A DNA stretch of 64,000 nucleotides, from NCBI RefSeq assembly GCF_016591715.1, contig NZ_AP024109.1, positions 806,001 to 870,000 of the forward strand. The letters are read 5' to 3'. Under the pieces are notes generated by a model. That model had not been told where the DNA came from. It saw only the letters and a program-made list of their open reading frames with translations, and did not search any database. Numbering within the stretch: the first letter of the stretch is position 1; every line of letters starts with the position of its first letter. The stretch comes from Mesorhizobium sp. J8 (GTDB lineage: Bacteria; Pseudomonadota; Alphaproteobacteria; Rhizobiales; Rhizobiaceae). The translations under genes and the position numbers were made by a program. Of the stretch, positions 4,863-34,644 are shown piece by piece.

Positions 4863-5393
4863 ATGAACCTCATGGACCTCGGCGACCGCATCTGCATTCT
4901 GGGACCGTCCAACAGCGGCAAGTCCACGCTCGCCAACGCGATCGCGCGCAAGCGCGCCCTGGAGCCCGTGCACCTCGACGTGCTTTTTCATTTGCCCAAC
5001 ACGGACTGGGAGCCGCGTTCACAGAGCGAATTCATTGCCCTGCACGATGCCGCCATCGCCGGCGAGCGCTGGGTGATGGACGGAAACTATTCGGTCTGCA
5101 TGCCGCAGCGCTTTGCGCGGGCGACAGGCTTGATCCTGCTCGACATCTCCACCCCTGCCAGTCTGCTGCGTTACTTTCGGCGAACGCTGTTCGAAACCGG
5201 GAGGCTGGGCGCTCTCGAAGGCGGACGCGATAGCGTCAAATGGGATATGATCCGCCACATCGCAGTGGTCACGCCGCGAAATCGCCAGCGATACCGGACG
5301 ATGTTCGAGGAACTCGACCTGCCGAAACTGCGGCTCGCCTCCATAAAAGCGATCAAGCGATGCTTTCACGCCTGGGGTTTGACCCTGAACTAA
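4863..5393 (+). CDS. P-loop adenylate-kinase-like / topology-modulation-type protein
   Basis: 176 aa with an N-terminal Walker A motif, GPSNSGKST, followed by helix ALANAIARK and a conserved HLDVLFHLPNTDW segment. These are typical of the FlaR/DNA-topology-modulation group of small P-loop kinases related to adenylate and shikimate kinases. WVMDGNY and a basic lid-like region (PRNRQRYR) also fit. The substrate is unknown; the topology label in databases is historical. ATG 4863 is preferred to the TTG at 4848. The stop overlaps the stop of the convergent reductase gene by four bases (5390-5393). Confidence 0.8.
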   Translation: MNLMDLGDRICILGPSNSGKSTLANAIARKRALEPVHLDVLFHLPNTDWEPRSQSEFIALHDAAIAGERWVMDGNYSVCMPQRFARATGLILLDISTPASLLRYFRRTLFETGRLGALEGGRDSVKWDMIRHIAVVTPRNRQRYRTMFEELDLPKLRLASIKAIKRCFHAWGLTLN

Positions 5394-30140: not shown

Positions 30141-30500
30141 ATGGAACGATGGGACTTCGAAGACCCGCCGAACGTCGCGGTGTTGTCGGACAGAGGCATA
30201 TTCAGACACGGCGACTGGATTGCATACGTTGTGCATGAAAGTGACGATGACTACGACGACGATGATGATGAAGGTGGCAGCTGGCAGTTCTACAGCAGCG
30301 ACACCCGAGATCGGGATGAAAGTGATATGATGCTCGTTGGCCTGCGAGAGGTGGTTGAACGGGATGAAAGCATCTTCGAATTGGCCGATTTGCCAAAGGG
30401 GTGGCACGCTTGGCGCAGTTCGAAGGCATCGCCGTGGCAGCGGGCGAAATCGCTGCCTGTTGGCTTCAATGACAACGATGGACCGGCCCAAAAAGGCTAG
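30141..30500 (+). CDS. Acidic small protein, DUF2185-like (possible immunity-type fold)
   Basis: 119 aa. A central stretch of aspartates (DDDYDDDDDEGG) is followed by SWQFYSSDTRDRDESDMMLVGLREVVERDESIFELADLPKGWHAWR. This resembles the DUF2185 pattern (W-x-F-x-S-D, conserved L-x-E-V, P-x-G), a family sometimes grouped with immunity proteins; the match is from memory and moderate. TTTAGGAG supplies the ribosome-binding site. Codon use is less GC-biased than that of its neighbours. The IS630 element begins within its stop codon: TA is the target duplication and G the first base of the IS. Confidence 0.65.
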   Translation: MERWDFEDPPNVAVLSDRGIFRHGDWIAYVVHESDDDYDDDDDEGGSWQFYSSDTRDRDESDMMLVGLREVVERDESIFELADLPKGWHAWRSSKASPWQRAKSLPVGFNDNDGPAQKG

Positions 30501-30506
30501 AGTCTT

Positions 30507-31112
30507 TCATGTTTTGACGGAAGCGTATCCGGCGTTTTCGAAGTAGTTCTTGCATTCGGCTGCCTCGATGGCTTCGACGAGGTGGCCGATGTGTCGCCAA
30601 GTGTCCTCGACGGTGCGTTTCTGCGCCTGGCGCATCCAGTGCTTGATCTTGGCGAAGGCCTGCTCGATCGGATTGAGGTCCGGTGAGTAGGGCGGCAGGT
30701 ACCAGAGCCTGGCGCCAGCGGCTTTGATCATCTGCCTGATGGCCGCCGACTTATGGCTGCCCAGGTTGTCCATGATGACGATGTCGCCGGGCTTCAGCAC
30801 GGTGATGAGCTGCTGCTCGACATAGGCGCGGAAGCATTGACCGTTGATCGGTCCGTCGAAGACGCAAGGTGCCGCGAGCCGATCACAGCGCAGCGCGCCG
30901 AGGAAAGTCAGCGTGCGCCAATGACCATGTGGAGCCAGGCCGCGCAGCCGCTTGCCCTTCGGCCCCCAGCCGCGCAGGGGAGCCATGTTGGTCTTGATCC
31001 AGGTCTCATCGATGAAGACCAGGCATTGGGGATCGAGGCCGGCCTGCCAGGATCGCCATCGCTGGCGCCGACGGGCAATATCGGCACGTGCCTGCTCAAG
31101 GGCGAACAGCGT
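30507..31112 (-). CDS. IS630 transposase, catalytic frame (orfB, DDE domain)
   Basis: Catalytic half read after the A-run: TLFALEQARADIARRRQRW follows the slippage site, then the DDE residues in FIDETW, IVIMDNLGSHKS and DLNPIEQAFAKIKHW. All three acidic residues are present. The first ATG in frame is at 30986, which would lose the first Asp, so expression as active enzyme needs frameshifting or transcriptional slippage at the A-run. The annotated start is the first codon after the run, not an initiation codon. Confidence 0.8.
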   Translation of the reverse strand, partial: TLFALEQARADIARRRQRWRSWQAGLDPQCLVFIDETWIKTNMAPLRGWGPKGKRLRGLAPHGHWRTLTFLGALRCDRLAAPCVFDGPINGQCFRAYVEQQLITVLKPGDIVIMDNLGSHKSAAIRQMIKAAGARLWYLPPYSPDLNPIEQAFAKIKHWMRQAQKRTVEDTWRHIGHLVEAIEAAECKNYFENAGYASVKT

Positions 31113-31455
31113 TTTTTTTGAAGCTTAGCCCTTCGCGGCGCAGGAACTGCCACACCGCATTGTGCGAGACCTTGACCCCGCGCGCGGCCAACTCGTCCTT
31201 CAGCCGATGTAGCGACAGATCAGAGGTCTGGTTGATCCGCTCCACGATGAAGGCTCGATGCGGTTCCAGAACCCGCTTACGGTGGCCACCCATCTTGCCC
31301 GGCGCCACCGAGCCGGTTGCCTGATGACGCTGCAACAATTTCACGGCTGTCGAATTTGCGATACCGAACCGCTTGGCGGCCGACCGGCGGCTCTCGCCAC
31401 TCAAAACCGCCGCAACAACCCGCTCGCGTAAATCATCGGAAAGAGGTCGAACCAT
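31096..31455 (-). CDS. IS630 transposase, N-terminal frame (orfA)
   Basis: 119 aa from ATG 31455 (MVRPLSDDLRERVV). It contains the helix-turn-helix DNA-binding region (SRRSAAKRFGIANSTAVKLLQR, then a second HTH VSHNAVWQFLRREGL). The frame ends at 31096, just after a run of eight A (31112-31119 on the opposite strand as T). Seven A would fuse it in frame with the catalytic part. An in-frame alternative start exists at 31494. Confidence 0.85.
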   Translation of the reverse strand: MVRPLSDDLRERVVAAVLSGESRRSAAKRFGIANSTAVKLLQRHQATGSVAPGKMGGHRKRVLEPHRAFIVERINQTSDLSLHRLKDELAARGVKVSHNAVWQFLRREGLSFKKNAVRP

Positions 31456-31545
31456 CAGATGCTGGCCTCCTATCCAGCCAGCATCTTGAATCACAAATCA
31501 GGCCGAGCGGGAATCCCCTACGATTCAATCAAGCTATGAAACGCT

Positions 31546-34500
31546 CTAAGTTGAGCTTTGTAACGGTTCGCTGGCATCCAAAACAGGGGACTTCTGTCCT
31601 GCCTTCGGCTCCTTGATCCGGAACCACGTCACGTAAAGCGCCGGCAGGAAGAGCAGCGTGATCGCCGTGCCGGCGATGATGCCGCCCATCATCGCGTAGG
31701 CCATCGGTCCCCAGAACACCTCGCGGGCGATCGGGATCAGCGCCAGGCTGGCGGCGGCGGCGGTCAGCGCGATCGGCCGCATGCGGTGCTCGGTCGCTTC
31801 GATCACGGCCGCCCAACGGTCTTTGCCTTCGGCGACGAGGTCCTCGATCTGCACGATCAGGATGACCGAGTTGCGGATCAGGATGCCGATCAGCGCCAGC
31901 ACGCCGAGGATGGCGACGAAGCCGAGCGGCGCGCCGCTGGGCACCAGCGCCGCCACCACGCCGATCAGGCCGAGCGGCGCCACCGCTACCACGAGGAACA
32001 GGCGCTGGAAGCTCTGCAACTGCACCATCAGGATGGTCGCCATGATGAACAGCATCAACGGCACCACGGCCGCGATGGGGCCCTGGCTCTTGGCGCTTTC
32101 CTCGACGGAGCCCGCCGTCTCGACCGAATAGCCGGGCGGCAGCTTGGCGATGAAGGCGTCGACCGAAGGCTTCAGCTCGTTGACGACGGTGGCAGGCAGC
32201 ACGTCGCCGACCAGGCCGGCCCGCACGGTGATGGTCGGGATGCGGTCGCGCCGCCAGACCGTCGGCTGTTCGAGGTCGTAGCGGAAGTTGGCAACCGCCG
32301 CGAGCGGGATCGACTCGCCGTTTCCGGTCGGCAGCTGCATGTTCTGCAGCGTCTCGATCGACCCGCGCTCGGCTTCGCGCGACCGCGCCACGACATTGAT
32401 GAGATAGGTCGCGTCGCGCACTTGGGTGATCGTCGAGCCGCCCACTGTGCTGTTCAGGGCGCTGGCGATGTCGGACGAGGTGATGCCGAGCTGGCGCGCC
32501 TTGTCCTGCAGCACGTCGACCCTCAGCACGCGCTGCGGCTCGTTCCAGTCGAAGGTCGGTGCCGCCAGCTTCGGATTGGCCGAGATCACGCCGGCGAATT
32601 GCTGCGCCAGTTCCCGCACCGTCTGGATGTCTGGACCGCCGACGCGGTACTGCACCGGCCTGCCCACCGGCGGACCCAGCTCCAGCAATTTGACGAAGGC
32701 GTCGGTGCCGACGAACTCCTCGCGCAGCAGCTTCTCCAGCGCCGGCTTCACCCGGTTGCGCGCCTCGATGCTCTTGGTGACGATGACCGTCTGGCCGAAA
32801 TAGGGATTGGCCGGCTGCACGTCATAGGCGAGCACGAAGCGCACGGCGCCCTGGCCGATATAGGAGGAGAAATGGTCGATGTCGGGATTGCCGACGAGCG
32901 CGCGTTGCTCGAAACGCTCCATCTGGTCGCGCGTCTCGGTGATCGAGGAATTCTGCGGCAGGTTCCAGTCGACGATGAGCTCCGGCCGGTCCGAGGGCGG
33001 GAAGAATTGCTGCTGGACGAGGCCGAAACCGGCGACCGAGGCGGCGAACAGAAGCACCGTCACGATGATGGTCAGCCAATGACGGCGCACAGAGAACACG
33101 AGCACGCGCCGGAACAGCGAGGTGAAACGTCCGGGCTGGTCGTGGTGCTTTTCCTTCATCGTCGCCGGCAGGATGGTGACCCCGAGCAGCGGCGCGAACA
33201 GCACCGCCACGATCCATGACACCAGCAGCGACACCGCGATGACGACGAACAGCGTGAAAGTGTATTCGCCGGCCGCGCTCGAGTTGAGGCCGATCGGGAT
33301 GAAGCCGGCGACCGTCACCAGCGTTCCCGTCAGCATCGGGAAGGCGGTCGAGGTGTAAACATAGGTCGCCGCCTTGCGCAGATTGTCGCCGACCTCCAGC
33401 CGCGCCACCATCATCTCGACCGCGATCATCGCGTCGTCGACCAGCAGCCCGAGCGCGATGATCAGCGCGCCGAGCGAAATGCGCTGCAGCGATATCCCTA
33501 GATATTCCATGACGGTGAAGGTGATTGCGAGCACCAGGGGTATCGACAGCGCCACGACGAAGCCGGCACGCAGGCCGAGGCTGATGAAGGAGACGGCGAG
33601 CACGATCGCGACCGCCTCGAAGAGCGCCCGCGTGAAGCCCGAGACAGCTTCCTCGACGATGACCGGCTGATCGGCAACCAGATGGACGCCGACGCCGACC
33701 GGCAGATCGGCCAGCACCTTCTGCATCTCCTCATGCAGCGCCTCGCCGAATTTGAGCAGATTGGCATTGGGCTTCATGCCGATGGCCAGGCCGATCGCGT
33801 CCTGGCCGTTGAAGCGGAACGGCGCCGTCGGCGGATCGGTATAGCCGCGCCGGATCGTCGCCACGTCGCTCAGCCGGAAGAAGCGATCGTTGACGCGCAG
33901 GTTGATGGCGCGCAGGCTTTCCTCGGAGGTGAACTGGCCGCCGACGCGCACGCTGATGCGCTCCGGACCGGACTGGATGACGCCCGACGGCGTGATGGCG
34001 TTCTGCGCCTGCAGGCTGGCGACGATCGCCTGCTGGTTGAGGCCGAGCGCCGCGATCTGTCGCGTCGAGAATTCGAGATAGATCGCCTCGTCCTGCGCGC
34101 CGACCAGATCGACCTTGCCGGCATTCGGCACGGTCAGGATCTTGGTCCGCACATCCTCGACATAATCGCGCAATTGGCGCGGCGTCAGCCCGTCGGCGGT
34201 GAAGGCGTAGATGTTGCCATAGACATCGCCGAAGCGGTCGTTGAAGAACGGCCCCTGCACGCCTTGCGGGAACTGGGCCTTGATGTCGTTGACCATATTG
34301 CGCACCTGAAGCCAGTTCGGCACGACGTCGCGCGCCTTGGTGGTGTCCTTCAGGTTGACGAAGATCACGGTCTGGCCGGCGGTGGTGACGGACCGGGTGA
34401 AGTCGAGGCTGTCCAGTTCCTCGAGCTTTTTCTCGATGCGGTCGGTGACCTGCTGCACCGTCTCCTTGACCGACGCGCCGGGCCAGTTGGCCTGGATGAT

Positions 34501-34644
34501 CATGGTCTTGATGGTGAAGGCGGGATCTTCCTCGCGGCCGAGATTGAGATAGGAGAAGATGCCGGCCACCACGAAGACCAGCATGAAATACCAGACCATC
34601 GAACGGTGGCCGAGCGCCCAGTCGGAGAGGTTGAAGCCCTTCAT
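31546..34644 (-). CDS. RND efflux permease (TriC-like)
   Basis: 1032-aa hydrophobe/amphiphile efflux transporter of the inner membrane. The N-terminal helix is followed by LGREEDPAFTIKTMIIQANWPGAS, typical of the branch that uses paired adaptors. The proton-relay aspartates lie in LGLLVDDAMIAVEMM, and the second-half motif is ILIRNSVILIVQIEDL. Twelve transmembrane helices and two large periplasmic loops are evident. The start overlaps the adaptor stop by one base. The stop codon TAG is now formed by the TA target duplication plus the terminal G of the adjacent IS; the protein is intact. Confidence 0.92.
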   Translation of the reverse strand: MKGFNLSDWALGHRSMVWYFMLVFVVAGIFSYLNLGREEDPAFTIKTMIIQANWPGASVKETVQQVTDRIEKKLEELDSLDFTRSVTTAGQTVIFVNLKDTTKARDVVPNWLQVRNMVNDIKAQFPQGVQGPFFNDRFGDVYGNIYAFTADGLTPRQLRDYVEDVRTKILTVPNAGKVDLVGAQDEAIYLEFSTRQIAALGLNQQAIVASLQAQNAITPSGVIQSGPERISVRVGGQFTSEESLRAINLRVNDRFFRLSDVATIRRGYTDPPTAPFRFNGQDAIGLAIGMKPNANLLKFGEALHEEMQKVLADLPVGVGVHLVADQPVIVEEAVSGFTRALFEAVAIVLAVSFISLGLRAGFVVALSIPLVLAITFTVMEYLGISLQRISLGALIIALGLLVDDAMIAVEMMVARLEVGDNLRKAATYVYTSTAFPMLTGTLVTVAGFIPIGLNSSAAGEYTFTLFVVIAVSLLVSWIVAVLFAPLLGVTILPATMKEKHHDQPGRFTSLFRRVLVFSVRRHWLTIIVTVLLFAASVAGFGLVQQQFFPPSDRPELIVDWNLPQNSSITETRDQMERFEQRALVGNPDIDHFSSYIGQGAVRFVLAYDVQPANPYFGQTVIVTKSIEARNRVKPALEKLLREEFVGTDAFVKLLELGPPVGRPVQYRVGGPDIQTVRELAQQFAGVISANPKLAAPTFDWNEPQRVLRVDVLQDKARQLGITSSDIASALNSTVGGSTITQVRDATYLINVVARSREAERGSIETLQNMQLPTGNGESIPLAAVANFRYDLEQPTVWRRDRIPTITVRAGLVGDVLPATVVNELKPSVDAFIAKLPPGYSVETAGSVEESAKSQGPIAAVVPLMLFIMATILMVQLQSFQRLFLVVAVAPLGLIGVVAALVPSGAPLGFVAILGVLALIGILIRNSVILIVQIEDLVAEGKDRWAAVIEATEHRMRPIALTAAAASLALIPIAREVFWGPMAYAMMGGIIAGTAITLLFLPALYVTWFRIKEPKAGQKSPVLDASEPLQSST

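Follow-up and report, generated by a model that had tools for sequence, protein, structure and literature searches.

How could an insertion sequence strike two genes at a single point and leave the protein of each whole, and did such landings occur more often than chance would allow? The question was raised by a stretch of 64,000 nucleotides from Mesorhizobium sp. J8 (contig NZ_AP024109.1, positions 806,001 to 870,000), which we refer to as the window. In this window an IS630-family element was inserted in the TA common to the overlapping stop codons of two convergent genes, and both proteins were left whole. An earlier note on this DNA had claimed such an arrangement, and the junctions, the element ends and the ORFs could all be read directly in the sequence. 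The ends lay where that note had put them (30500 and 31546), and a copy of TA flanked the element on both sides. The features of the locus are collected in Table 1.

Table 1. Features of the insertion locus in window coordinates
Feature	Position	Strand	Evidence
119-aa gene; TAG end formed by host TA and the element's first G (TAA in the empty site)	30141-30500	+	ORF, relatives
TA target duplication, left copy	30498-30499	no strand	junction sequence
IS630-family insertion sequence, 1047 bp, transposase on minus strand	30500-31546		copies, ends and profile matches
Left terminal inverted repeat, imperfect	30500-30527	+	end comparison
orfB, DDE catalytic part of the IS630 transposase; frame open upstream to the A8 run	30507-30986	-	ORF and profile
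orfA, N-terminal helix-turn-helix part of the IS630 transposase	31096-31494	-	ORF and profile
A8 run (T8 on the plus strand), meeting point of the orfA and orfB frames	31112-31119	-	copy comparison
Right terminal inverted repeat, imperfect	31519-31546	-	end comparison
RND transporter gene (ACR_tran), TAG at the right junction	31546-34644	-	ORF, profile match
TA target duplication, right copy	31547-31548	no strand	junction sequence

The left junction read GGC-TA-GAGTC and the right junction ACGCTC-TA-AGTT. On the left, the TA supplied codon positions 1 and 2 of the plus-strand ORF and was completed to TAG by the first G of the element. On the right, the TA read on the minus strand, together with the last base of the element, gave the TAG that ended the RND ORF. 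Since G stood at both 5' ends of the element and the TA was duplicated, a TAG was formed on each side and the protein end of each gene was kept. By the same arithmetic, any TAA or TAG stop struck by this element turns into TAG. The two junctions therefore read as the earlier note had described them, with each gene receiving a TAG of its own, and only the plus-strand stop changed its type (from TAA to TAG). The RND stop was TAG both before and after the insertion because the left flank has a C directly before the TA and the element ends with the same base.

The two genes were not equally well characterized by profile searches. The product of the RND gene matched Pfam ACR_tran with 505.6 bits, and NCBIfam RND models matched it under their cut-offs. 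For the plus-strand ORF there was only a sub-threshold match to Imm33 (20.3 bits against a cut-off of 25.4), and a DNA match to this ORF was present in 40 of the 145 other genomes of the genus. The middle part of its product was rich in Asp.

The element itself had an IS630-type DDE transposase, a TA target duplication and terminal inverted repeats, as expected for the IS630 family. Its repeats comprised about 28 imperfect bases per end (GAGTCTTTCATG... and GAGCGTTTCATA...), both starting with GAG. The orfB product matched NCBIfam transpos_IS630 with 131.9 bits (cut-off 100) and Pfam DDE_3 with 117.1 bits (cut-off 28.6), and the orfA product matched the N-terminal part of transpos_IS630 with 59.3 bits, which was under the cut-off set for the whole protein. 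Six full copies were present in the genome, and the other five differed from the window copy by one or two positions, which suggests recent activity of the element. At position 31520 the window copy shared an A with copy L003, the other four having C there, and these two looked the closest pair among the copies. A TA bordered each end of all six copies, the target reading CTAG in four of them, TTAG in one and CTAA in the window copy. In a looser listing of 29 loci from relatives, 21 had TA at both junctions, and in the other eight one or both ends were unplaced.

In five of the six copies the transposase was split into orfA and orfB at the A8 run. Moreover, a T run of eight was the longest in that stretch in 25 of the 29 relative loci. 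It was likely that this split represents a putative programmed slippage site, resembling the slippage or frameshifting of the IS630 family. In the sixth copy (L006) the run was A7 and the two frames formed one fused ORF, so this copy would yield the full transposase without slippage.

What the site looked like before the insertion was read from relatives, in which element-free versions were obtained by flank searches. The comparison was with a sister species (G156), the closest relative found, rather than with another strain of the host species, and its plus-strand gene was 89% identical. There the empty site read AGCTAAGTT, the plus gene ended with TAA and the RND gene with TAG, and one TA was common to both stops. 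The empty site predicted in the earlier note, GGCTAAGTT, was matched by this sequence in the shared stop, and the third base before the TA differed between the species. We re-read the place in 29 relatives by protein alignment, and 28 of them were readable (locus L111 was not). The convergent stops overlapped in five of the 28 (loci L090, L105, L110, L112 and L117; genomes G156, G116, G154, G146 and G052). The plus gene stopped 4-12 nt before the RND stop in 22 (20 with TGA and two with TAA) and 434 nt before it in one, so in all but one of the 28 the two genes ended no more than 12 nt apart. The small plus gene had two end types across species, namely an early one (22 of 28) and an extended one overlapping the RND stop (5 of 28).

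These relatives also bore on the reading that the insertion itself created the end of the plus gene, a degraded ORF having been closed accidentally by the TAG of the element. Such an origin would agree with the earlier gene end in those 22 relatives and with a separate gene caller, which left the plus-strand gene uncalled in the window. However, the element-free G156 had a similar extended end, with its TAA at the shared TA, and overlapping ends were also present in G116, G154, G146 and G052, which made a created end very improbable. We also looked for an empty allele with a longer coding sequence. Among the 28 readable relatives the plus gene never ran beyond the shared TA, and the RND tail past the conserved core counted 20 residues in the window as well as in G156. 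The length of this tail was 15 residues in one relative and 19-21 in the other 27, as expected if both protein ends were kept. Because overlapping stops were found in five of the 28 relatives, the element-free G156 included, and an earlier plus-gene end in 22, the shared stop is a lineage-specific arrangement older than the insertion. The earlier note had likewise placed both stops on one TA.

The next question was whether stop codons were struck by this element group more often than expected. We considered 115 loci: the six own copies, 29 loci from a search of the genus (L120-L148) and 80 loci from a scan of named genomes (L175-L254), the last being the best 80 of at least 573 confirmed ones. 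Forty loci were skipped since an end was not found or a flank was shorter than 400 bases, and four were duplicates, leaving 71 independent insertions with the window included. Their contexts were CTAG in 44, CTAA in 15 and TTAG in 12, with none other; the TA was demanded by the rule used for finding the ends, and the outer two bases were free. The third base of a native stop was taken from beyond the opposite TA. As a control we used the CTAG, CTAA and TTAG sites in 464 kb of the 6.69 Mb host genome (the window together with twenty 20-kb stretches). The 441 sites of this control omitted the window's own junctions, which were included in a 517-site tally made with the separate gene caller.

An exact landing in the native stop of a coding-like gene was observed in 18 of the 71 insertions (25%) versus 34 of the 441 host control sites (8%). 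Coding-like genes were recognized by a simple in-house score for which the host had served as training set, whereas most of the insertions came from other genomes. The excess was supported by Fisher's test (OR 4.1, P 5e-5), also with gene interiors left out (OR 3.0, P 0.001). Without the window, 17 of 70 insertions were in stops. The insertions of Mesorhizobium alone gave 8 of 30 (P 0.003), and a control drawn from the sequence flanking these loci gave 12 of 51 insertions versus 27 of 460 sites (P 1e-4). With the strictest coding threshold the excess became weaker, the counts being 10 of 71 versus 26 of 441 (P 0.02, or 0.03 with interiors left out; OR 2.3-2.6). When the separate gene caller served as the control, stops made up 40 of 289 non-interior sites (14%) versus 18 of 67 insertions, an approximately twofold difference (binomial P 0.004). 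A first pass under a stricter end rule had kept 61 insertions, 17 of them at stops.

The genes involved were mostly recognizable. Namely, 18 of the 19 stop-landing ORFs had a Pfam match (L228 had none, and L171 was barely at the cut-off), and some matched to the end of the profile, such as a formate-tetrahydrofolate ligase at 556 of 556. The least straightforward case was copy L003 (L170), where the adjoining minus-strand frame ran without a stop for 500 codons, up to the border of the 4-kb locus, and the separate gene caller put no gene at the junction. A part of 250 aa was coding by score and contained an FkbM methyltransferase domain matched almost to its end; on account of this score and this match the copy was counted as a stop landing. 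The direction of the transposase relative to the struck gene showed no clear bias (11 the same and 8 opposed). Taken together, landing in stop codons as a class exceeded chance.

The double stop of the window was a rarer kind of target. With the gene caller, host sites shared by two called convergent stops numbered 2 of 517 (0.4%), one of the two being an unoccupied CTAA in the window itself (5390-5393); the second classifier gave 3 among 441. Double-stop landings were found in 2 of the 71 insertions, the window included, versus 3 of the 441 control sites, which is no striking difference. The second case came from Bradyrhizobium sp. LTSP849 (L236, 4442-5487), in which a separate insertion belonging to this element group occupied a CTAG that ended both a gene for an MFS transporter and a convergent gene for a Crp-family regulator, the two genes being supported by Pfam. 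By simple arithmetic, done after the fact, six copies had a chance of about 2-4% to produce one double-stop strike, so the landing in the window, taken alone, was mildly unusual. A chance of this size, for a case picked afterwards, would be compatible with pure coincidence, namely that the CTAG-like site struck by the element was a shared stop by accident, without wider meaning. On the other hand, the 18 stop landings among 71 independent insertions and the second double stop in L236 argued against it, and we regard coincidence as improbable.

The gene setting of the insertions pointed to what may lie behind the excess. Only 4 of the 71 insertions were in the interior of genes versus 128 of the 441 control sites. 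Genes were called on both sides for 43 of the 67 non-interior insertions, and of these 43, 24 lay between convergent gene ends and two between divergent genes, compared with 45 and 41 of 196 control sites, respectively. Since insertions were scarce inside genes and between divergent genes and in surplus between convergent ones, we infer that selection acted on them. In tandem pairs no excess of stop landings was found (4 of 17 insertions versus 22 of 109 control sites), as expected if the splitting of operons was harmful.

It was therefore highly probable, in our assessment, that an ordinary rhizobial IS630-family element had entered the CTAA shared stop of two convergent genes and that the excess represented the survival of harmless insertions. 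The TA that it entered would have belonged to a CTAA in which two convergent stops overlapped; this TA was duplicated, and the G at both 5' ends of the element completed a TAG on each side. Selection, as the distribution suggests, would have removed insertions that fell within genes or between divergent promoters. Insertions in stop codons would persist, most of all where two genes converge, with neither protein changed and no promoter cut. The suggestion of the earlier note that the landing site was neutral and possibly selected fitted the distribution of the 71 insertions, from which the selection is deduced.

One observation went against survival as the only factor. Even within convergent pairs, stops were favoured over the spacer (14 of 24 insertions versus 9 of 42 control sites), which simple neutrality does not predict. 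Moreover, only 8 of 41 insertions, versus 67 of 151 control sites, were separated from a facing 3' end by over 100 nt. Both results would be expected if the transposase, or the state of the DNA at gene ends, targeted stops or convergent 3' ends, for example through supercoiling between converging transcripts. However, no wider target motif was seen when the base profile was inspected by eye, with no strong preference within 10 bases on either side of the four-base core, and a control weighted by this profile still gave an expected stop share of 12% of non-interior sites. Additionally, the depletion in genes and in divergent regions was a prediction of selection. Thus, we consider targeting of gene ends to be unlikely, and survival of harmless insertions remained the preferred explanation.

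A bolder proposal is that the CTAG-like target and the G at both ends form a host-sparing design, the element group having been shaped or kept by TAA and TAG stops as safe harbours, with copies gathering in the stops of convergent genes across rhizobia; we put this forward as a speculation that is doubtful at present, if somewhat less so than targeting. In any case, a simple countable rule, made of a target and a terminal base, described how a transposon could settle in a tightly packed genome and leave the genes unbroken. It turned a curiosity into a testable excess, with about one quarter of the examined insertions lying exactly in native stops. It also carried a warning for annotation, since a TAG at the border of an element can be the true end of a gene. 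No reports of insertion sequences landing in stop codons were found among the titles and opening lines of abstracts listed, which is not proof of their absence.

Several known systems could be compared with this element group. Insertion sequences that target REP palindromes have extragenic landing sites (PMC1525189); unlike theirs, the targets observed here had only the four-base CTAG-like core in common. IS630-family elements with a recoded transposase, such as the Roseiflexus IS630, use two frames through slippage or frameshifting (PMC5009743). The present transposase likewise lay in two frames with a putative slippage site, but, unlike in those elements, one of its own copies (L006) already had the fused ORF. 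ISY100 of Synechocystis, also of the IS630 family, is a cut-and-paste element with a TA target and a TA duplication (PMC2170065), and the present element shared both the target and the duplication. It differed in that its transposase was split into orfA and orfB, whereas the ISY100 transposase is encoded by one gene; the words "stop codon" did not occur in the text of the ISY100 paper that was searched. Finally, the IS630 of Shigella sonnei (IS630/Tc1/mariner superfamily) prefers the TA within CTAG (Tenzen et al. 1990; Tenzen and Ohtsubo 1991, in PMC2170065), and CTAG was a target of the present group as well. In contrast to that preference, the group used CTAA or TTAG in 27 of 71 insertions, and its transposase was split by the A8 run. 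The landing rule derived from the chemistry of the family (TA target and duplication with a CTAG preference; PMC2170065) together with the terminal G, and the mechanism of landing, with CTAG-like targets and a duplicated TA, was an ordinary one for IS630 elements.
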